Shown piece by piece: positions 30,331 through 41,954 of a stretch of DNA of 64,000 nucleotides. This stretch comes from Streptomyces deccanensis. GTDB taxonomy: Bacteria; Actinomycetota; Actinomycetes; Streptomycetales; Streptomycetaceae. The position numbers and the translations under genes were made by a program. The first letter of the stretch is position 1; each line of letters opens with the position of its first letter. The stretch lies in the NCBI RefSeq assembly GCF_022385335.1, contig NZ_CP092431.1:6572001-6636000 (forward strand). Reading direction: 5' to 3'. Below the pieces are notes generated by a model. That model saw only the letters and a list, made by a program, of their open reading frames with translations, was not told the origin of the DNA and searched no databases.

Positions 30331-30634
30331 CACACGTCCCCCTATCGCCGAAACGGTTGCCTCCGGCCAGTGTGGGGGGCGTAGTCCGACTAGGCGAGAG
30401 GGCGTGATCGTGGGTGGGGGTCGGGGGGCGGGGTTTCGCCGTGGGGGTGCGGGTGGTCGGCCGGGTGCGGGTGTGTCGTGGTTGCTCGCGCAGTTCCCCG
30501 CACCCCTTTCAGGGGCGGGGTCGGCTGCGAGTGCCCTGTGGCCGGTCGCGGCCGCTCAGTGCAGCCGCAGGCCGACACGGCCCCGCGCCCCGTGCTGAAC
30601 TGCGGATCCCGGGTACTGGGGAATGATGGTGCCC
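30331..30634. other. divergent intergenic region with degenerate repeat core
   Basis: A region of about 300 bp between the STAND ATPase and the DUF255 gene. It holds G-rich sequence (30405-30475) and one arm of the palindromic repeat core at 30484-30508 (CTCGCGCAGTTCCCCGC, copy 3). A short imperfect hairpin CACCCCT-TTC-AGGGGCG follows it in place of the full second arm. No gene is supported here. Confidence 0.5.
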
Positions 30635-32683
<2,049 letters not shown>

Positions 32684-32840
32684 AAGTCGCCGGTCAGGGA
32701 CCGGGGCAAGGGTGCACAACTGACCGGAAACGGCATGGTGTGCGGACACGTCCGATTAGGTGTTCTACCGAACGGAAACACGCTTTTTATCGGAAGGGTC
32801 CCCAGGGTTCACAGTTTCCCCCTAGTCTCTCCACAGTGAC

Positions 32841-32865
32841 GCGGCGGGGGTAACTCCCGCCGCGA
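32841..32865 (+). promoter_or_regulatory. hairpin in the leader of the glycan operon
   Basis: CGCGGCGGG and CCCGCCGCG form a perfect 9-bp stem with a 7-nt loop, ending 31 bp before the TTG start of the GT2 gene and 18 bp before its GGGGGGA ribosome site. It could be a 5'-UTR structure affecting operon expression. The 213-bp intergenic region upstream is AT-richer (near 32740-32830) than its surroundings and probably contains the promoter, which I cannot fix exactly. Confidence 0.4.
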
Positions 32866-32896
32866 CAGGGGGTATTGGGATCCGGGGGGATCTATC

Positions 32897-34165
32897 TTGC
32901 TGACGTCTGTCTTCATAGCTGTCGTCTCGCTGGCCTTGTTCTGGATGGCGGCCTTCACCTTGTGGTGGCAGATGCACGCGTGGCGAACGCCCGAAGTGCT
33001 CGCCTCCACCCGCTTCAGCAGACCCGACGGCGACGAGCATCTGTCGTTCTCACTGCTGCTGCCGGCACGCCATGAACAGGCCGTGCTGGACCACACCATC
33101 CAACGGCTCCTCGAATCCAGCCACGACGACTTCGAGATCATCGTGATCGTCGGGCACGACGACCCGGAGACCACCGCGGTGGCCCGGGCCGCCGAGGAGC
33201 GCGACCCACGCGTCCGCGTCGTGGTCGACCACCATGAGAAGAAGAACAAACCGAAGGCCATGAACACGGCTTTACCGCACTGCCGCGGTGATGTCGTGGG
33301 AGTCTTCGACGCCGAGGACCAGGTCCACCCGGAGCTGCTGTCCCACGTCGACCACGCCTTCCGCACCACCGGCGCGGACGTCGTGCAGGGCGGGGTGCAG
33401 CTCATCAACTACAACTCCAGCTGGTACAGCCTGCGCAACTGCCTGGAGTACTTCTTCTGGTTCCGGTCCCGGCTCCATCTGCACGCGCAGAAAGGATTCA
33501 TTCCGCTCGGCGGCAACACCGTCTTCGTCCGCACGGACGTGCTGCGCGCGGCCGACGGCTGGGACCCCAACTGCCTCGCGGAGGACTGCGACCTCGGCGT
33601 CCGGCTGTCGAGCGTGGGCAAGAAGGTCGTCGTCGCCTACGACTCCGACATGGTGACCCGGGAGGAGACCCCCGGCAGCCTGATGTCGCTGATGAAGCAG
33701 CGCACCCGCTGGAACCAGGGCTTCCTCCAGGTCTACCGGAAGAAGGACTGGCGCCAACTGCCCGCCTTCCGGCAGCGGTTGCTCGCCCGCTACACACTGA
33801 TGACGCCCTATCTGCAGGCCGTCTCCGGGGTGATCATCCCGCTCAACGTCGCCATCGCGCTCTTCCTCGACGTCCCCGTCGGCGTCGCCTTCATCACCTT
33901 CCTGCCGGCCGTCACCGCCCTCGTCACCTTCGTGTTCGAGGTCGTCGGACTCCACGACTTCGGCAAGCAGTACGGACTGCGCGTCCGGTTCGTCCACTAC
34001 GTCAAGCTCGTCGTGGGCGGCCCCTTCTACCAGGTGCTCCTCGCCTTCGCCGCCGTACGCGCGGTGTGGCGCGAGCAACGTGGCCGCAACGACTGGGAGT
34101 TGACCAGTCACGTCGGCGCACATCTCGTGAACGCGAACGTCAACCGAGAGGACGTTCCTGCGTGA
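32897..34165 (+). CDS. processive GT2 glycosyltransferase (CslA-like glycan synthase)
   Basis: A 422-aa membrane glycosyltransferase. One N-terminal TM helix (about residues 4-26) precedes a GT-A catalytic domain with the D-x-D-like FDAEDQVHP, a second acidic site LAEDCDLGVRL and the processive-synthase signature QRTRW. Three C-terminal TM regions (about 300-395) follow. This layout matches cellulose/chitin/hyaluronan synthase-like enzymes such as CslA, which polymerise a beta-glycan while extruding it. Start TTG 32897 follows GGGGGGA with 6 nt spacing. It is the first gene of a four-gene operon and overlaps the next by 4 bp. The donor sugar is unknown. Confidence 0.86.
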   Translation: MLTSVFIAVVSLALFWMAAFTLWWQMHAWRTPEVLASTRFSRPDGDEHLSFSLLLPARHEQAVLDHTIQRLLESSHDDFEIIVIVGHDDPETTAVARAAEERDPRVRVVVDHHEKKNKPKAMNTALPHCRGDVVGVFDAEDQVHPELLSHVDHAFRTTGADVVQGGVQLINYNSSWYSLRNCLEYFFWFRSRLHLHAQKGFIPLGGNTVFVRTDVLRAADGWDPNCLAEDCDLGVRLSSVGKKVVVAYDSDMVTREETPGSLMSLMKQRTRWNQGFLQVYRKKDWRQLPAFRQRLLARYTLMTPYLQAVSGVIIPLNVAIALFLDVPVGVAFITFLPAVTALVTFVFEVVGLHDFGKQYGLRVRFVHYVKLVVGGPFYQVLLAFAAVRAVWREQRGRNDWELTSHVGAHLVNANVNREDVPA

Positions 34166-35949
34166 CCTCCACACTTCCCGCGGCGGCCAAGACGGAAGTC
34201 AAGGTCCCCGCGCAGCGGACAGCTGCGCCCACAACCGGTTCGACAGGTCGAACAAACGATTCCTCTTCCGCTTCGCCCGCGCCCGAGGCACCGCCGAAGC
34301 GCCTGCGGAACTCGCGTCCCGACCTGATCCTCTGCGGTGTCCTCCTCGTCGCGATCATGATCGTGCAGGGCTGGAACATCGCCGACTACCCGACCCTCAG
34401 CGACGACGAGGGTACCTACCTCGCCCAGGCCTGGGCCGTCCAGGAGGGCAGGGGCCTCGCCCACTACACCTACTGGTACGACCACCCGCCCCTTGGCTGG
34501 ATCCAGCTCGCCGTCCTGACCTGGATCCCCGCCCAACTCGCCCCCGAGTCGATGACCGTCGGCTCCATGCGCGCGGTGATGCTGCTGATCAGCGCCGTCA
34601 GCGCCGTCCTCGTCTACGTCCTCGGCCGCCGTCTGTCGCTGCCCCGCTGGGCCGCCGGCCTCGGCATGGCCCTCTTCGGGCTGTCGCCGCTGTCGGTGGT
34701 GCTCCAGCGGGAGATCTTCCTCGACAACATCGCGGTGATGTGGACGCTGCTCGCGTTCTGCCTCGCCGCCTCGCCGAGCCGTCACCTCTGGCACCACTTC
34801 GGCGCCGGCATCGCCGCCGCCGCGGCCGTGCTCACCAAGGAGACGATGCTCCTCGTCCTGCCGGCCGTGCTGCTCACCATGTGGCGGCACAGCCACCGGG
34901 ACACCCGCAAGTTCGCCATCACCGGTGCCGTCACCGCCTGCACCCTGATCGGCATCTCGTACCCGCTGTTCGCCCTGCTCAAGGGCGAGTTGTTCCCCGG
35001 AGCCGGCCATGTGTCCCTCTGGGACGGCATCGTCTACCAGATGAGCCGCCCCGGCTCCGGCTTCATCCTCACGGAGGGCACGGGCTCGTACGGCGTCCTG
35101 CAGTCGTGGCTGTACTACGACCGCGTCCTGCCGCTCGGCGGACTCGCCGGCGCCCTGCTCCTGCTGGTCACCTGGCGCTGGTCGGTGACCGCGCGGGCCC
35201 TCGCCGGCCCTGCGCTCGCCGTCGCCATCCTCGCCGGAATGGCCCTGCGCCCCGGCTACCTGCCCGCGATGTACGTCCTCCAGGCGCTGCCCTTCCTCGC
35301 ACTCGTCCTCGCGGGCGGCACGGCCAGCGTCACCCACGGCGTCCTGCGCAGATGGCGCAGCGCGACCGAGCGACGGGCCCTGACCTGGGCACGGCACGCC
35401 CTGGCGCTCGCCCTGGCCGCCGCCGCTGCCGCGTACGTCGTCCCACGCTGGTACGACGGCAACCACACCGCGATGACCTTCGACGCCAACGCGCCCTACC
35501 AGCAGGCCGCCGAGTGGCTCGGCAGGGAGGTCGAGGACCCCGCCGACACCCGGGTCCTCGTCGACGACGCGCTCTGGCTCGACCTCGTCCACGAGGGCTA
35601 CGAGCCGGGCCTCGGCGTCATCTGGTTCTACAAGGCCGACCTCGACCCGGCGGTGACGAAGACGATGCCGCGCGGCTGGCGCGACCTCGACTACGTGGTC
35701 GCGTCCCCGACGGTACGGCGCGACGCGGTCGACCTGCCCAACGTCAAGGGCGCGATGGAGAACTCGACCCCGGTGGCCACCTTCGGCACCGGCGAGGACC
35801 GGATCGAGATCCGCAGGATCGAGGGCGCGGGGGACGACGACCGGGCCCGCGGGACCGGGACCGGGACCGAGAGCGAGACCCAGGCCGAGACCGAGGCCGC
35901 CGACGACGACCGGAGCCGCGATACCGAGGCCGCTGGAGGCGACCGATGA
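34162..35949 (+). CDS. GT39/ArnT-like membrane glycosyltransferase
   Basis: A 595-aa polytopic protein with about ten TM helices. The first extracytoplasmic loop carries the acidic catalytic motif SDDEGTYLAQAW and then YDHPPLGW, as in PMT/ArnT-type (GT-C) enzymes that transfer sugars from polyprenyl-phosphate donors outside the membrane. It has a Thr/Pro-rich cytoplasmic N-terminus and a C-terminal soluble domain with a Glu/Asp-rich tail. GTG 34162 overlaps the GT2 stop codon (GTGA). Its donor is plausibly made by the next gene, which encodes a DPM1-like domain. Confidence 0.85.
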   Translation: MTSTLPAAAKTEVKVPAQRTAAPTTGSTGRTNDSSSASPAPEAPPKRLRNSRPDLILCGVLLVAIMIVQGWNIADYPTLSDDEGTYLAQAWAVQEGRGLAHYTYWYDHPPLGWIQLAVLTWIPAQLAPESMTVGSMRAVMLLISAVSAVLVYVLGRRLSLPRWAAGLGMALFGLSPLSVVLQREIFLDNIAVMWTLLAFCLAASPSRHLWHHFGAGIAAAAAVLTKETMLLVLPAVLLTMWRHSHRDTRKFAITGAVTACTLIGISYPLFALLKGELFPGAGHVSLWDGIVYQMSRPGSGFILTEGTGSYGVLQSWLYYDRVLPLGGLAGALLLLVTWRWSVTARALAGPALAVAILAGMALRPGYLPAMYVLQALPFLALVLAGGTASVTHGVLRRWRSATERRALTWARHALALALAAAAAAYVVPRWYDGNHTAMTFDANAPYQQAAEWLGREVEDPADTRVLVDDALWLDLVHEGYEPGLGVIWFYKADLDPAVTKTMPRGWRDLDYVVASPTVRRDAVDLPNVKGAMENSTPVATFGTGEDRIEIRRIEGAGDDDRARGTGTGTESETQAETEAADDDRSRDTEAAGGDR

Positions 35950-37238
35950 GCAGCGGAAGCTACGAGTCCACCGCCCCCGGGGAACTGGGCGACCCGGCGG
36001 TGCGCGGCGCCGAGGTGCCCGAGCCGGGGGCCGTCACCATCGTCGTACCGACCTACAACGAGTCCGCCAACGTAAGGGAGTTGCTGCACCGGATCACCGA
36101 GACGGTGCCGTCGAGGCTGCCCTGCGAGGTGGTCTTCGTCGACGACTCCACCGACGACACCCCGCAGGTCATCGACGCCGCCGCGCAGGACTGCCCGTTC
36201 CCGGTGACCGTGCTGCACCGCGACGAGCCGGTCGGCGGACTCGGCGGCGCGGTCGTCGAGGGCATCCGGGCGGCCGGCTCCGACTGGATCGTCGTCATGG
36301 ACGGCGACCTCCAGCATCCACCGTCCCTGGTACCGGAGTTGGTGGCCACCGGGGAACGGTCGGCCGCCGGTCTGGTGGTCGCCTCCCGCTACATCAAGGG
36401 CGGCAGCCGGGCCGGACTCGCGGGCAGCTACCGCGTGGCCGTCTCGCGCGGCGCGACCTGGCTCACCAAGGCCCTCTTCCCGCGCCGCCTGCACGGCATC
36501 AGCGACCCGATGAGCGGCTTCTTCGCCATCCGCCGCAGCGCGGTCACCGCCGACGTCCTCCAGCCGCTCGGCTACAAGATCCTCCTCGAACTCGCCGTGC
36601 GCAGCCGTCCCCGGCGCGTCACGGAGGTGCCGTTCGTCTTCCAGGACCGCTACGCGGGCGAGTCCAAGTCGACCGCGCGGGAGGGGTTCAGGTTCCTGCG
36701 CCACCTCATGGGGCTGCGGACGGCCTCGCCGCTCGCCCGCATGATCGTCTTCGGGCTGATCGGTGTCACCGGCTTCGTCCCGAACCTCGCCGGTCTCCAC
36801 GCCCTGACCTCGGCCGGCATGCACTACGTCCCCGCGGAGATCCTCGCCAACCAGCTCGGGGTGGTCTGGAACTTCTTCCTCATCGAGCACCTGTGCTTCC
36901 GCGAGCGGCGCAGGCACCGCAAGGGATGGGACCGCATCGGCAGGTTCGCGCTGCTCGCCAACGCCGATCTGGTGCTGCGCATCCCGCTGATCGCCCTGTT
37001 CGTCGGCAAGTTCGGGATGGGGGCGCTGCCCGCGACCGCGCTCGCCCTGGTCACGACGTTCGTGCTGCGCTTCGTGGGGACCGAGGCGCTCGTCTATCTG
37101 CCGCGCGGCACGTCCGGTCGTGGCAGGAGGTCTCGCCGTGGGGAGCGCGGCGAGGAGAAGAGGGCTGGACGGCCGGAGCGGCCGGACCAGGCCGGTCAGG
37201 CCGAGCAGCCTGAGCAGTCGGCAAGGAGAGCCGCGTGA
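35946..37238 (+). CDS. GT2 polyprenyl-phosphate sugar synthase fused to GtrA domain
   Basis: A 430-aa fusion. Residues about 28-260 form a DPM1/ArnC-like GT2 domain (IVVPTYNESANVRELL, FVDDSTDD, VMDGDLQHPP, DPMSGFFAIRR) that would load a sugar onto polyprenyl phosphate. Residues about 262-395 form a four-helix GtrA domain thought to flip such lipid-linked sugars across the membrane. A charged Arg/Glu/Gln-rich tail ends the protein. ATG 35946 overlaps the upstream stop (ATGA), and the next gene again overlaps by 4 bp. It probably supplies the lipid-sugar donor to the GT39-like enzyme. Confidence 0.88.
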   Translation: MSSGSYESTAPGELGDPAVRGAEVPEPGAVTIVVPTYNESANVRELLHRITETVPSRLPCEVVFVDDSTDDTPQVIDAAAQDCPFPVTVLHRDEPVGGLGGAVVEGIRAAGSDWIVVMDGDLQHPPSLVPELVATGERSAAGLVVASRYIKGGSRAGLAGSYRVAVSRGATWLTKALFPRRLHGISDPMSGFFAIRRSAVTADVLQPLGYKILLELAVRSRPRRVTEVPFVFQDRYAGESKSTAREGFRFLRHLMGLRTASPLARMIVFGLIGVTGFVPNLAGLHALTSAGMHYVPAEILANQLGVVWNFFLIEHLCFRERRRHRKGWDRIGRFALLANADLVLRIPLIALFVGKFGMGALPATALALVTTFVLRFVGTEALVYLPRGTSGRGRRSRRGERGEEKRAGRPERPDQAGQAEQPEQSARRAA

Positions 37239-39679
37239 AGAACCCACTGAAGAACCGCCGGCAGACCCGGACGAGACCCAGACGGAGAACGGCCCTGCTG
37301 GCGGTGGGCGCACTCGCCTCCGGGCTGCTGCTGATCTCGCCCCAGCCCGCGTCCGCCGCCAACCTCGTCAAGAACCCCGGCTTCGAGACGGCCGGCACCG
37401 GCGACATGCCGTACTGCTGGTCGAAGTCCGGCTGGGGCGACAACGACTTCACCTTCACGACGGTGGCGGACGCCCACTCGGGCTCCAAGGCCATGAAGGT
37501 GGAGCTGACCCGCCGGGTCTCCGGCGACCGCAAGGCCCTGGTCACCGAGTCGGCGGCCTGCGCGCCGCCGGTCACCGTCGGCAAGCAGTACGACCTCGGG
37601 CTCTGGTACAAGTCGACGACCCCGGACACCTCCCTCACGCTCTTCCGGCACGACACCACGGCCGGCTGGCAGTACTGGACCGACCTCAAGACGCTGGAGA
37701 TGGCGGGGAGTTGGACCGAGGCGACGGTCCGCACCCCCGCGATCCCGGCGGGCACCGACCGGATCACCTGGGGCGTCTCCGTCTACGGCACCGGCTCCGT
37801 CACCACCGACGACTACACCATGGACCAGGTCGCCGACCCGGTCCCGGACCCGGAGTGCACCGGCACACCGGCCGAGTGCCAGAACGGCCGCTGGGACGTC
37901 CTGCCCACCCAGAACCCGGTCCGCTCCATGCACTCCGTCGTCCTCAACAACGGCAAGGTGCTGCTGATCGCCGGCTCCGGCAACAGCGAGGAGATGTTCG
38001 AGGCGGGCACCTTCACGTCGGCGGTGTACGACCCGAAGAACGGCACGTACAAGCAGATCCCGACCCCGGACGACATGTTCTGCGCGGGCCACGTGCAGCT
38101 GGACGACGGCCGGGTGCTGGTGATGAGCGGCAACAAGGCCTATCCGGTGCCGGGCGGACACGGCTACGAGGGCTACAAGGACTCGTACGTCTTCGACCCG
38201 GTGACGGAGACGTACAGCAAGACCAACGACATGAACGACGGCCACTGGTACCCGTCGGCGACGATCCTCGGCAACGGTGACGTCATCTCCTTCGGCGGTC
38301 TGCGCGAGGACTCCACGGGTTCGGTGACGGCCGAACTGTGGTCGGACGCCGAGCAGAAGTGGCTCGAACTCTGGAAGGTCAACCAGACCTGGTCGTACTG
38401 GGGCCTGTACCCGTCGATGATCCTCATGCAGGACGGCCGCCTCTTCTACTCGGGCAGCCATGTCTTCGGCAACAACATCCCGGGGACGGGTTCGGCGATC
38501 TACGACTACGGGGCCAACACGATCACACAGGTCCCGGGCCTGCAACGGAAGGACGAACGCGACCAGTCCGCGAGCGTGCTGCTGCCCCCGGCCCAGGACC
38601 AGAAGGTCCTGACGCTCGGCGGCGGCAACATCGAGTCCAACCCCGCGGCGAACCGCCTGACGGACATCATCGACCTCAAGGCCGCGAACCCCGCGTACGT
38701 GGCCGGCCCGCCGATCCCGCAGGGCACGGTGGACCTGGGAGCCGGCAAGGTCGCCCAGACCGGGGACCAGGGCAAGATGTACGTCTCGGCGGTGCTGCTG
38801 CCCGACGGCAAGGTCCTGGAGACGGGCGGCGCCCTGCACAACCGCGCCGACCCGGTCTACGAGACGTCGATCTACGACCCGGCGACCAACACGTTCGACC
38901 AGGTGGCGACGGACCCGGAGGAGCGCGGCTACCACTCCTCGGCCTTCCTCCTGCCCGACGGCCGTGTCATGACCACGGGCGACAACCCGGGCAACGGCAC
39001 ATGGAACCACGACGTGTCGATCTACACCCCGCCGTATCTGTTGAAGGGTGCGCGTCCTTCCATCACCTCGGTGATCGACAAGGAGTGGGTGTACGGCGAC
39101 ACGCAGCGCATCACGGTGGACCGGCCCATCGCCAAGGCGGAACTGATCCGCCCGGCGGCGGTCACCCACTCCTCCGACCCGAACCAGCGCTTCGTGGACC
39201 TGCCCCTGTCGGTGGACGGCAACAACGTCGACCTGAACGTGACGAGCAACCCGAACCTGGCCCCGCCGGGCTGGTACATGCTCTTCGCGGTCGACGCCAA
39301 CGGGGTGCCCTCGGTGGCCGAATGGGTCCACCTCCAGGGCCCGTCCGCCCTCGCGCAGGCCTCCGGCGACGCCCCGTCGGCCCACGTCCACGACTTCGCG
39401 GACGCTCCGAAGGGCAAGGTCACCGGCCCGGGGAAGAAGGTCAGGTCGAAGAAGGTCAGCCCGACCGTCTCCGGCTGCGACCGCCACTACGGCACGGCGA
39501 ACGTCTGCGTGCCGACCGCCTTCCCGGCGGAGGTCAAGAAGACGACGGCGGCGCGGTGCGCGTGGTTGAAGGAGAACGACTACGGCCGCCTGAAGGTCAA
39601 CGGCAAGGACGATCCCCTGAAGCTGGACCGCGACAGGGACGGTCTGGCTTGCGGAAAGGGTGATGTGAAGCGCCGCTGA
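37235..39679 (+). CDS. secreted galactose-oxidase-like copper-radical oxidase
   Basis: An 814-aa exported oxidase. An Arg-rich signal peptide (RRRTALLAVG, cleavage near ASAA) precedes a carbohydrate-binding-like beta-sandwich (about residues 45-200), a Kelch-type galactose oxidase domain and a DUF1929-like C-terminal domain. A terminal Excalibur-type calcium motif (DRDRDGLACG) follows. All five expected copper/cofactor residues can be placed: Cys283 (FCAGH) and Tyr339 (HWYPS) for the thioether radical, Tyr566-His567 (GYHSS) and His645 (VTHSS). The nearest known relative by design is GlxA, which acts with CslA on a hyphal-tip glycan. GTG 37235 overlaps the preceding gene. It would oxidise primary alcohols on the operon's own glycan. 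Confidence 0.88.
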   Translation: MKNPLKNRRQTRTRPRRRTALLAVGALASGLLLISPQPASAANLVKNPGFETAGTGDMPYCWSKSGWGDNDFTFTTVADAHSGSKAMKVELTRRVSGDRKALVTESAACAPPVTVGKQYDLGLWYKSTTPDTSLTLFRHDTTAGWQYWTDLKTLEMAGSWTEATVRTPAIPAGTDRITWGVSVYGTGSVTTDDYTMDQVADPVPDPECTGTPAECQNGRWDVLPTQNPVRSMHSVVLNNGKVLLIAGSGNSEEMFEAGTFTSAVYDPKNGTYKQIPTPDDMFCAGHVQLDDGRVLVMSGNKAYPVPGGHGYEGYKDSYVFDPVTETYSKTNDMNDGHWYPSATILGNGDVISFGGLREDSTGSVTAELWSDAEQKWLELWKVNQTWSYWGLYPSMILMQDGRLFYSGSHVFGNNIPGTGSAIYDYGANTITQVPGLQRKDERDQSASVLLPPAQDQKVLTLGGGNIESNPAANRLTDIIDLKAANPAYVAGPPIPQGTVDLGAGKVAQTGDQGKMYVSAVLLPDGKVLETGGALHNRADPVYETSIYDPATNTFDQVATDPEERGYHSSAFLLPDGRVMTTGDNPGNGTWNHDVSIYTPPYLLKGARPSITSVIDKEWVYGDTQRITVDRPIAKAELIRPAAVTHSSDPNQRFVDLPLSVDGNNVDLNVTSNPNLAPPGWYMLFAVDANGVPSVAEWVHLQGPSALAQASGDAPSAHVHDFADAPKGKVTGPGKKVRSKKVSPTVSGCDRHYGTANVCVPTAFPAEVKKTTAARCAWLKENDYGRLKVNGKDDPLKLDRDRDGLACGKGDVKRR

Positions 39680-40791: not shown

Positions 40792-40818
40792 GTGCCGCAT
40801 CAGGCAACGTTCGCCCTG
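40789..40818 (+). repeat. left terminal inverted repeat
   Basis: Thirty bases starting CTAGTGCCGCATCAGGCAAC, matching the complement of 42581-42610 at every position. The transposase stop codon lies inside it, so the last transposase residues (RANVA) are encoded by the repeat. Confidence 0.9.
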
Positions 40819-41954
40819 TCGACGACGGCGCGTAGGCGCCGGTCGTCGGCGTGGCGGTTTCGCCAGATGATGTAGCGGCGGATCATGTTGCCCTGTTCCT
40901 TGTGGTCGGCGTGGTCGGTGCCGTCGAGCGTGAAGTAGCGCAGGGCGGTGAACTGGGCCTCGATCCGGTTCAGCCAGGAGGAGTTGGTCGGCGTGTAGGC
41001 GATCTCGACGTAGTTCGCCGCCGCCCAGGTGCCGACCTGCTGGCATCGCTTCGTGGTCAGGTGAGGGGAGAAGTTGTCGCAGACGATCGCGATCCGCACC
41101 GTCGGAGGGTAGAGGGTGCGCAGGTAGCGGCAGAACTCCAGGAACTGGGTGCGCCGCTTGAGCGGTTTGATGTGGCCGTAGAGCTTGTCCTTGCCCAGGT
41201 CCAGGGCGGCGAACAGGTGCCGCACCCCGCCGTAGCGGTTGTAGGTCGCCCGGCGTCGGCGGCGGGGCTGACGGTCGGGGTCCTTGTGCCTGCCGCCGCG
41301 CTCGACCCACTGCCGGCCGGGGTGCGGCATCAGGTTGAGCGGCCCGAACTCGTCCATGCAGAAAACGGCTTCGGGCTCGCCGTCCTCGGCTATGACCTCG
41401 CCGTCGGCTATCGCGTAGAGATGCTCGACGCGGGCCTTCTTGGCCGCGTAGTCAGGGTCACGGGAGGTCTTCCAGGTCTTCAGGCGTTGAAAGGAGACGC
41501 CTTCCTCGCGGAGCAGGATGCGCAGGCCCTCGTGGCTGATGTCGTCGACCACCCCCTCAGCTACCAGGAAGTCGGCCAGCTTGGCCAGGCTTCAGGTCGA
41601 GAACGGCAGGCCGTGCTCGGCCGGCCTGGACTTGGCGATCTTCTTGATCTCCCGGCGTTCGGAAAGGTTGAAGGTCTTCGGGCGGCCCCCCTTGTACTTC
41701 GGGTAGAGAGAGTCGAAGCCGTCCGTGTTAAAGCTGTGGATCACGTCCCGGACGCGATCCGCGCTGGTGAACGTCACCTCGGCGATCTTCGCCACCGGCA
41801 TGCCCTGCGCGGACAGCAGGATCATTTGAGCCCGACGCCAGGTCACCACCGATCCGGTGCCCCGGCGAAGGATCCGCACCAGCCGTCGGCCCTCGTCATC
41901 ATCGATCTCGCGGACACATACCCGTTCTGCCGCCCGGACAGCCTGGCCCACCAC
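40800..41954 (-). pseudogene. IS630-family transposase, in-frame TGA
   Basis: DDE transposase of the IS630 family. The N-terminal 120 codons (41954-41595) encode HTH segments (AKIAEVTFTSADRVRDVI) and end FST; a TGA at 41592-41594 interrupts the frame. The sequence then continues without any shift, SLAKLADFLVAEGVVDDISHE, to the stop at 40800. The conserved residue at the stop is Trp in relatives I recall (FSTWSLAKLAD), so one TGG-to-TGA transition explains it. The catalytic residues are all present in the distal part: Asp in FCMDEFG, Asp in VCDNFSPH and Glu in NRIEAQF. Activity would need readthrough or trans-complementation. Confidence 0.88.

Follow-up and report, generated by a model that had tools for sequence, protein, structure and literature searches.

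Does a Streptomyces chromosome that already carries the cslA-glxA pair hold a further route to an oxidized surface glycan? The question is raised by four genes lying in one direction at 32897-39679 (+) of a 64,000-nucleotide stretch of Streptomyces deccanensis DNA (NCBI RefSeq assembly GCF_022385335.1, contig NZ_CP092431.1, positions 6,572,001 to 6,636,000 of the forward strand; hereafter the window). With a probability of roughly 0.55, we favor a reading in which these genes specify a cell-surface glycan pathway apart from CslA-GlxA, whose product would be made, decorated with a lipid-linked sugar, and oxidized; its product, donor, and oxidation site are those that we infer below. Each start overlaps the preceding stop by 4 bp, and the junctions read, in operon order, gtga, atga, and gtga, confirming the three GTGA/ATGA overlaps recorded in a first-pass annotation of this DNA, which had also named the four genes and motifs found here (QRTRW at residues 268-272 of the first protein; DDEG in the PMT-like protein). 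The operon comprises:

32897..34165, + strand: GT2, a family 2 glycosyltransferase (TTG start, 422 amino acids; Pfam PF13641, E 1.1e-40)
34162..35949, + strand: PMT/GT39-like GT-C glycosyltransferase (GTG start, 595 amino acids; PF02366, PF13231)
35946..37238, + strand: DPMS-type polyprenyl-phosphate sugar synthase fused to a GtrA membrane domain (ATG start, 430 amino acids; PF00535, PF04138)
37235..39679, + strand: GOX, a putative secreted radical copper oxidase (GTG start, 814 amino acids; PF09118, 89.1 bits)

Throughout, GOX denotes the window-type oxidase, L-numbers individual loci, G-numbers sampled genomes, and f90 a second family.

The operon is a second system, as had been proposed: a separate, canonical pair was found in the same chromosome (G000:C1, ~3.867-3.871 Mb), encoding a CslA of 665 and a GlxA of 645 amino acids, and the locus is not a sole cslA-glxA pair with unrelated flanking glycosyltransferases. 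Second cslA-glxA copies have been reported in S. griseus, S. albus, and S. roseosporus (PMC3543389, in the text available), and the operon might accordingly be taken for a duplicated pair with chance neighbors. The window GT2, however, is just 22% identical to its own CslA over 223 residues (E 1.75e-7), and CslA was not among the nine own-genome places matched by the GT2 at E 0.001. The window GOX shares 36% identity over 408 residues and 41% over 92 with its own GlxA, and its cross-link Cys stands 55 residues from the Trp, as in ten f90 oxidases, compared with 167 in that GlxA (the sole GlxA in the alignment), leaving GOX without 112 GlxA residues. In a tree of 28 oxidases, from which f90 rows were left out and in which several long outgroup branches were flagged, the 16 GOX rows formed a clade apart from the three GlxA rows with a support of 99/100. 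Moreover, the gene set is conserved together in two families. On the low GT2 identity, the separate clade, and the 112-residue gap, duplication was rejected as scarcely credible. The description of the synthase as "CslA-like" was not supported either, given the difference in length and identity and the XagB- or poly-N-acetylglucosamine (PNAG)-synthase-like names of its annotated relatives. Because the canonical genes overlap by ATGA as well, 4-bp overlaps are not peculiar to the four-gene operon and were dropped as evidence, by themselves, for a special one. At the canonical locus of the window genome (L091:7092-12060), no adjacent cslZ-like gene was seen in the list of open reading frames, which was judged by eye with no family search.

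Do the four genes belong together? In the named collection, for which the counts rest on the best 80 of 322 encoding places, they stand together and in order in 78 of 80 loci, the other two being cut by contig ends, and the grouping is therefore not due to chance. The 4-bp overlap recurs at junctions 1, 2, and 3 in 74/78, 78/78, and 66/78 loci, and dN/dS for the four genes was 0.05-0.29 (five comparisons). S. scabiei 87.22 likewise carries the operon (L011), as do S. viridochromogenes DSM 40736 (L068) and S. lincolnensis (L043). In a sample of 150 Streptomyces genomes (GT2 orthologues at ≥60% identity and full length; counts per sampled genome, uncorrected for relatedness), the GT2 and GT-C were both found in an identical set of 56; of these, 55 have GOX and 51 the DPMS-GtrA protein. 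Among the 56, GOX was absent in G073, split into two pieces in G142, and partial in G028 and G139. The counts exclude seven genomes: G043 and G124, whose loci appear to be decaying (fragments of GT2 and GOX in the former, of GT-C and GOX in the latter); G055, G069, G089, and G096, with only a distant GT2 (~44%) beside a distant GT-C (~32%); and G137, with a DPMS and no GT2. Among the individual loci, decayed remnants are represented by L114 (GT2 and oxidase fragments) and L115 (GT-C and oxidase fragments). Such linkage supports a single pathway, and the lipid-sugar synthase and the GT-C, which had been proposed as true members, proved to be conserved in place rather than chance neighbors (78/80 loci; 51/56 and 56/56 genomes; f90 clusters). 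Two GOX-bearing genomes (G030 and G111) gave a single oxidase match each, with at most six candidates scored per genome; GOX may therefore sometimes occur without a canonical GlxA.

The gene set extends beyond the window's family. Among 246 genomes of the class, the GT2 was detected at E 1e-60 in 25, of which 16 lie outside that family, and all 16 also hold the GT-C (E 1e-20), adjacent and on the same contig in 15; in five further genomes, a weaker GT-C match was obtained and no GT2 passed these thresholds. GOX-type oxidases (49-60% identity) occur in 10 of the 16, all of them in f90 (10 of its 11), and no oxidase match at E 1e-20 was obtained in the other six, which represent six families, f90 among them. 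The order in f90 is DPMS, GOX, Sco, GT2, GT-C in seven of ten loci (L172-L178), and a Sco gene lies between oxidase and GT2 in nine (L172-L180), the tenth (L181) being cut beside GOX. This f90 cluster, combining the four genes with a Sco copper chaperone in 9/10 loci, is new. The Sco gene of L172 scores 106 bits against SCO1/SenC (cut-off 22.8) and contains a CPDVC motif; in L142 and L143, too, a Sco gene separates GOX from the GT2, and L169, which yielded no GOX, has one next to its GT2. All six copper-site residues are kept in the ten f90 oxidases, and that of L172, the only one whose ends were inspected, carries three N-terminal PA14 domains where the window GOX has its CBM-like domain. Canonical genes lie apart from the GOX cluster in four f90 genomes: CslA, GlxA, and Sco in L182 and L183; GlxA and Sco with no CslA match in L184; and CslA and GlxA without Sco in L185. 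A separate cslA-glxA pair is thus present in three of the four f90 genomes examined; both systems coexist in this family, with a Sco gene near each in 3/4 genomes. The two genomes of the f90 genus g267 (L174 and L175) have, upstream of the cluster, a second GOX-type oxidase (~57-60%) whose end is Excalibur-like. According to the available parts of one study, loss of Sco disturbs the maturation of GlxA in S. lividans when copper is low, and the cslA-glxA cluster of Frankia adjoins a sco gene (PMC4736821).

Which members form the core of the system is indicated by rearranged loci. The set persists in co-directional, divergent, and oxidase-first orders: in L108-L113 and L138 (GOX 57-61% identical), the GT2, together with the DPMS except in L108, is divergent from the GT-C and GOX, and in L142 and L143 GOX comes first. 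No DPMS was found at L118 or L144. In L139, L140, and L141, no GOX stands beside the GT2 and GT-C pair, which is preceded by a secreted-looking protein of 1352-1357 amino acids (L141:4481-8539); for L140 and L141, Pfam assigns this protein a PQQ-type propeller together with L-type lectin and Ig-like domains. Neither GOX nor this PQQ/lectin protein was present within the stretch fetched around the pairs of L136 and L137. Distant GT2 and GT-C pairs span L156-L160; that of L157 has as neighbors a subtilase and a protein that looks membrane-anchored and has no Pfam match, and L156 and L160 have similar partners, judging by size and position. Because the GT2 and GT-C remain constant while the secreted partner varies, this pair, and not the oxidase, is the defining core; the oxidase is an exchangeable partner that is absent or replaced in several lineages.

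What, then, would each protein do? GOX scored above Pfam cut-offs for PF09118 (89.1 bits), Kelch_6 (40.7 bits), and PF07250 (43 bits), that is, a kelch propeller and a galactose oxidase-like E-set domain, and it matched, at the structure level, 4unm (E 5.4e-88), which we take to be the GlxA structure. Against the GlxA equivalog NCBIfam NF052501, it reached 405.9 bits, below the cut-off of 800. Its features, with residues placed by alignment with GlxA, are as follows:

38081..38083, + strand: Cys283, the expected Tyr-Cys cross-link residue (GlxA Cys121)
38246..38251, + strand: Trp338-Tyr339 (GlxA Trp288-Tyr289)
38930..38935, + strand: Tyr566-His567 (GlxA Tyr501-His502)
39167..39169, + strand: His645 (GlxA His589)
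37358..37726, + strand: possible carbohydrate-binding N-terminal domain, CBM_4_9-like (PF02018, E 0.0094, below cut-off)
39620..39652, + strand: Excalibur-like C-terminal motif (PF05901, E 0.03, below cut-off)

Cys283, Tyr339, Tyr566, His567, and His645 thus stand where they had been placed and align with the copper-site residues of GlxA, for which a C121G variant has been published, Cys121 being the cross-linking cysteine (PMC4736821, text available in part). The copper-radical set (cross-link Cys and Tyr, axial Tyr, and two His) is complete in the window GOX, and the site is kept in 80/80, 13/13, and 10/10 (f90) GOX-type oxidases, or 103/103. The carbohydrate-binding and Excalibur-type domains fared less well, and their labels are weaker than claimed, both matches falling short of the Pfam cut-offs. 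A signal peptide, judged by eye, ends at about residue 41. GOX therefore looks like a secreted protein with sugar-binding-like ends and a full copper-radical residue set and, by residues and domains, appears to work like AA5-type radical copper oxidases. A glucose/sorbosone dehydrogenase-type protein elsewhere (L155:6826-10227) carries two copies of a stretch resembling the GOX N-terminal domain (42%).

The GT2 has a single N-terminal hydrophobic stretch and a further two toward the C-terminus, one of them sufficiently long for two helices, and two motifs that are invariant in 65 aligned sequences:

33308..33319, + strand: DAED motif, GT2 residues 138-141
33698..33712, + strand: QRTRW motif, GT2 residues 268-272

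Also invariant (65/65) are ED and, near the C-terminus after the last hydrophobic stretch, W-E-x-T-x-H, presumably comparable to the gating loop seen in processive synthases. When the comparison was widened to 100 GT2 rows, 96 matched all patterns, and L136, L137, L172, and L173 miss one each. The 65-sequence profile matched the solved structures 6yv7 (E 2.8e-14) and BcsA 5ej1 (E 8e-14), aligning with BcsA across the DxD, ED, and QxxRW motifs. Relatives are annotated as glycosyltransferase, cellulose/PNAG synthase-like, or XagB, and the PgaC model gave 76 bits (cut-off 422). The GT2 is thus a putative glycan synthase of XagB/PgaC type, whose motifs (DxD-like, ED, and QxxRW) suit a processive enzyme without proving one.

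The GT-C protein, in which the DDEG motif was located, exceeded the Pfam cut-offs for PF02366 (43.7 bits; cut-off 22.7) and PF13231 (35.3 bits; cut-off 26.1), and a search of solved structures with this PMT-like protein gave no useful match. It would putatively transfer a lipid-linked sugar on the extracytoplasmic side. Residues 30-378 of the 430 in the DPMS-GtrA protein, covering catalytic and membrane parts, match the dolichol monophosphate mannose synthase 5mlz (E 2.7e-54), and mannose is for this reason most likely the donor sugar.

Taken together, these assignments suggest the following sequence of events. The XagB-type GT2 would make a glycan at the membrane and pass it out. Going by its family, the DPMS-GtrA protein would load a sugar (most likely mannose) onto polyprenyl phosphate and help present that sugar outside, where the GT-C would move it onto the GT2 product; that the GT-C tracks the GT2 and not GOX favors this product as its acceptor. 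Radical copper oxidases convert primary alcohols to aldehydes, and secreted GOX, with its active-site residues in place and its copper probably delivered by a Sco-type chaperone, would presumably oxidize a primary alcohol on the glycan product, giving an aldehyde and H2O2. Aldehyde or H2O2 could then cross-link or harden the surface layer.

Several observations weigh against this pathway. By single sequence and by profile, the best PDB match of the GT2 is 6yv7, which we take to be a non-processive archaeal mannosyltransferase; QxxRW is no proof of polymerase activity; and simple hydropathy gives only three hydrophobic stretches, few for a channel. The DPMS-GtrA protein is absent at E 1e-50 in 5/56 genomes (G002, G021, G035, G073, and G111), so a dedicated donor enzyme is not essential. 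The divergent arrangement pairs the GT-C with GOX and the GT2 with the DPMS. No Sco match was found in the window or in L004-L083, making the Sco link indirect for the window operon, and among ten more distant actinobacterial oxidases, all six residues aligned in 8/10, with L146 and L148 failing. The likeness to 6yv7, together with the short protein, its few hydrophobic stretches, and weak profile matches that include HpnI and family 21, would suit a non-processive GT2 that builds, with the DPMS and GT-C, a short lipid-linked oligosaccharide or lipoglycan that is then oxidized. We consider this rather unlikely, as the invariant QRTRW, the W-E-x-T-x-H stretch after the last hydrophobic stretch, with its presumed gating-loop likeness, and annotators' names including XagB and cellulose/PNAG synthase-like all speak for a processive enzyme.

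The GT-C could instead be a protein O-glycosyltransferase that acts on secreted partners such as GOX, with the DPMS as its donor enzyme. Pfam does assign it to PMT families, the core pair lies beside various large secreted proteins (GOX, the PQQ-propeller/lectin protein, and the putatively anchored protein), and the pairing of GT-C with GOX in divergent loci is what glycosylation of GOX would also predict. Yet the GT-C tracks the GT2 (56/56; 16/16) and persists without the oxidase, which disfavors GOX as sole target, although not other proteins, and leaves this explanation unlikely. Far less probable is that the gene set is co-inherited while GOX mainly makes extracellular H2O2 or small aldehydes and does not modify a glycan. 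GlxA is reported, in the part of the study available, to turn over glycolaldehyde with a specificity differing from that of galactose oxidase (PMC4736821), which would fit such a role and counsels caution on substrate claims in general; GOX, however, occurs only with the GT2 and GT-C in the 150-genome sample (55/55, two more genomes holding remnants), and its additional domains (CBM-like in the window, PA14 in L172) also tell against it. The made, decorated, and oxidized glycan thus remains the reading we prefer. A bolder version, which we offer tentatively and regard as possible rather than probable, is that of an ancient, hitherto undescribed surface-glycan machine in at least two actinobacterial families, parallel to CslA-GlxA, wherein side sugars would be transferred extracellularly from a lipid carrier to the GT2 chain and then turned into aldehydes by a Sco-charged copper-radical oxidase, cross-linking the glycan to itself or to wall amines.

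How the operon is expressed and placed can be judged from its surroundings, where one feature was delimited by MAFFT alignment of 77 upstream regions:

32684..32896, + strand: intergenic region preceding the operon, a probable promoter region

In that alignment, a conserved block lies ~58-125 bases upstream of the GT2 TTG start, and the ribosome site of the GT2 falls in a conserved stretch, GGGGGGATCT (also given as GATCtGGGGGGATCT), both within window 32772-32896. Some relatives show an inverted repeat between the upstream block and the ribosome-site stretch. An Rfam search returned no leader-type match at threshold anywhere in the window. Directly upstream, a DUF255/thioredoxin-fold gene (window 30623-32683) is kept in 68/68 full-length named loci, placing the operon at one ancestral site in those loci. 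Transposase-like genes downstream (window 40800-41954) are unmatched in the same 68 loci.

A published model holds that copper affects Streptomyces development partly through GlxA (PMC4736821, as far as the text was available), and the presence in these cells of another conserved glycan system with a copper oxidase could open a further copper-dependent route to surface structure, perhaps another way for such bacteria to toughen or stick surfaces. The operon also offers a testable case of radical-enzyme oxidation of a decorated bacterial glycan.

No description of the GOX gene set was found in the open-licence literature, as far as the texts were available. Where cslA-glxA-cslZ-lpmP is described, the accessible text does not mention the four-gene set (PMC9040799); in the available text of PMC11267884, Streptomyces appears only in the reference list. 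A 2013 survey of 28 Streptomyces genomes counted a single protein with the GlxA architecture in each genome except three (PMC3543389, partial text); because its architecture differs, the GOX type would not have been counted there. For S. coelicolor M145, just one galactose oxidase is reported (PMC3543389). The survey is cited, with no further relevant content in the portion available, in PMC9693552.

How does the operon compare with better-known systems? The nearest own-genome relative of the GT2 is a 780-amino-acid open frame (29% identity) that we call MatB-type, an identity that is a guess; that frame is longer, and the own-genome oxidase search found no oxidase there. To XagB, of the Xanthomonas xagABCD biofilm polysaccharide system, and PgaC, the operon is likened by the names of some GT2 relatives and the weak PgaC match, although no GT-C or oxidase is mentioned for xagABCD and pgaABCD in the text available (PMC3609779). 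Lipid-linked side-chain addition employs an undecaprenyl-phosphate-sugar synthase, a GtrA-type flippase, and a GT-C transferase. Here, too, a DPMS-type GT2, a GtrA domain, and a GT-C share one operon, which unlike those systems couples them to a dedicated GT2 synthase and a copper oxidase. The closest parallel is CslA-GlxA of Streptomyces (SCO2836-SCO2837), which likewise joins a GT2 to a radical copper oxidase with the same copper-site residues in one operon with a 4-bp overlap, and in f90 Sco lies near the oxidase in both systems (9/10 GOX-type and 3/4 canonical loci). No cslZ-like gene was recognized beside the GOX operon, for which no profile search was made. The window GT2 belongs to a different branch and is much shorter (422 as against 665 amino acids), and GOX lacks the GlxA segment while having extra N- and C-terminal parts. 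GOX also seemingly bears a cleavable signal peptide (by eye), in place of the membrane helix predicted for GlxA (PMC11022532, available text). With its built-in GT-C and DPMS-GtrA proteins, the GOX operon is a variant of the CslA-GlxA kind of synthase-oxidase coupling.

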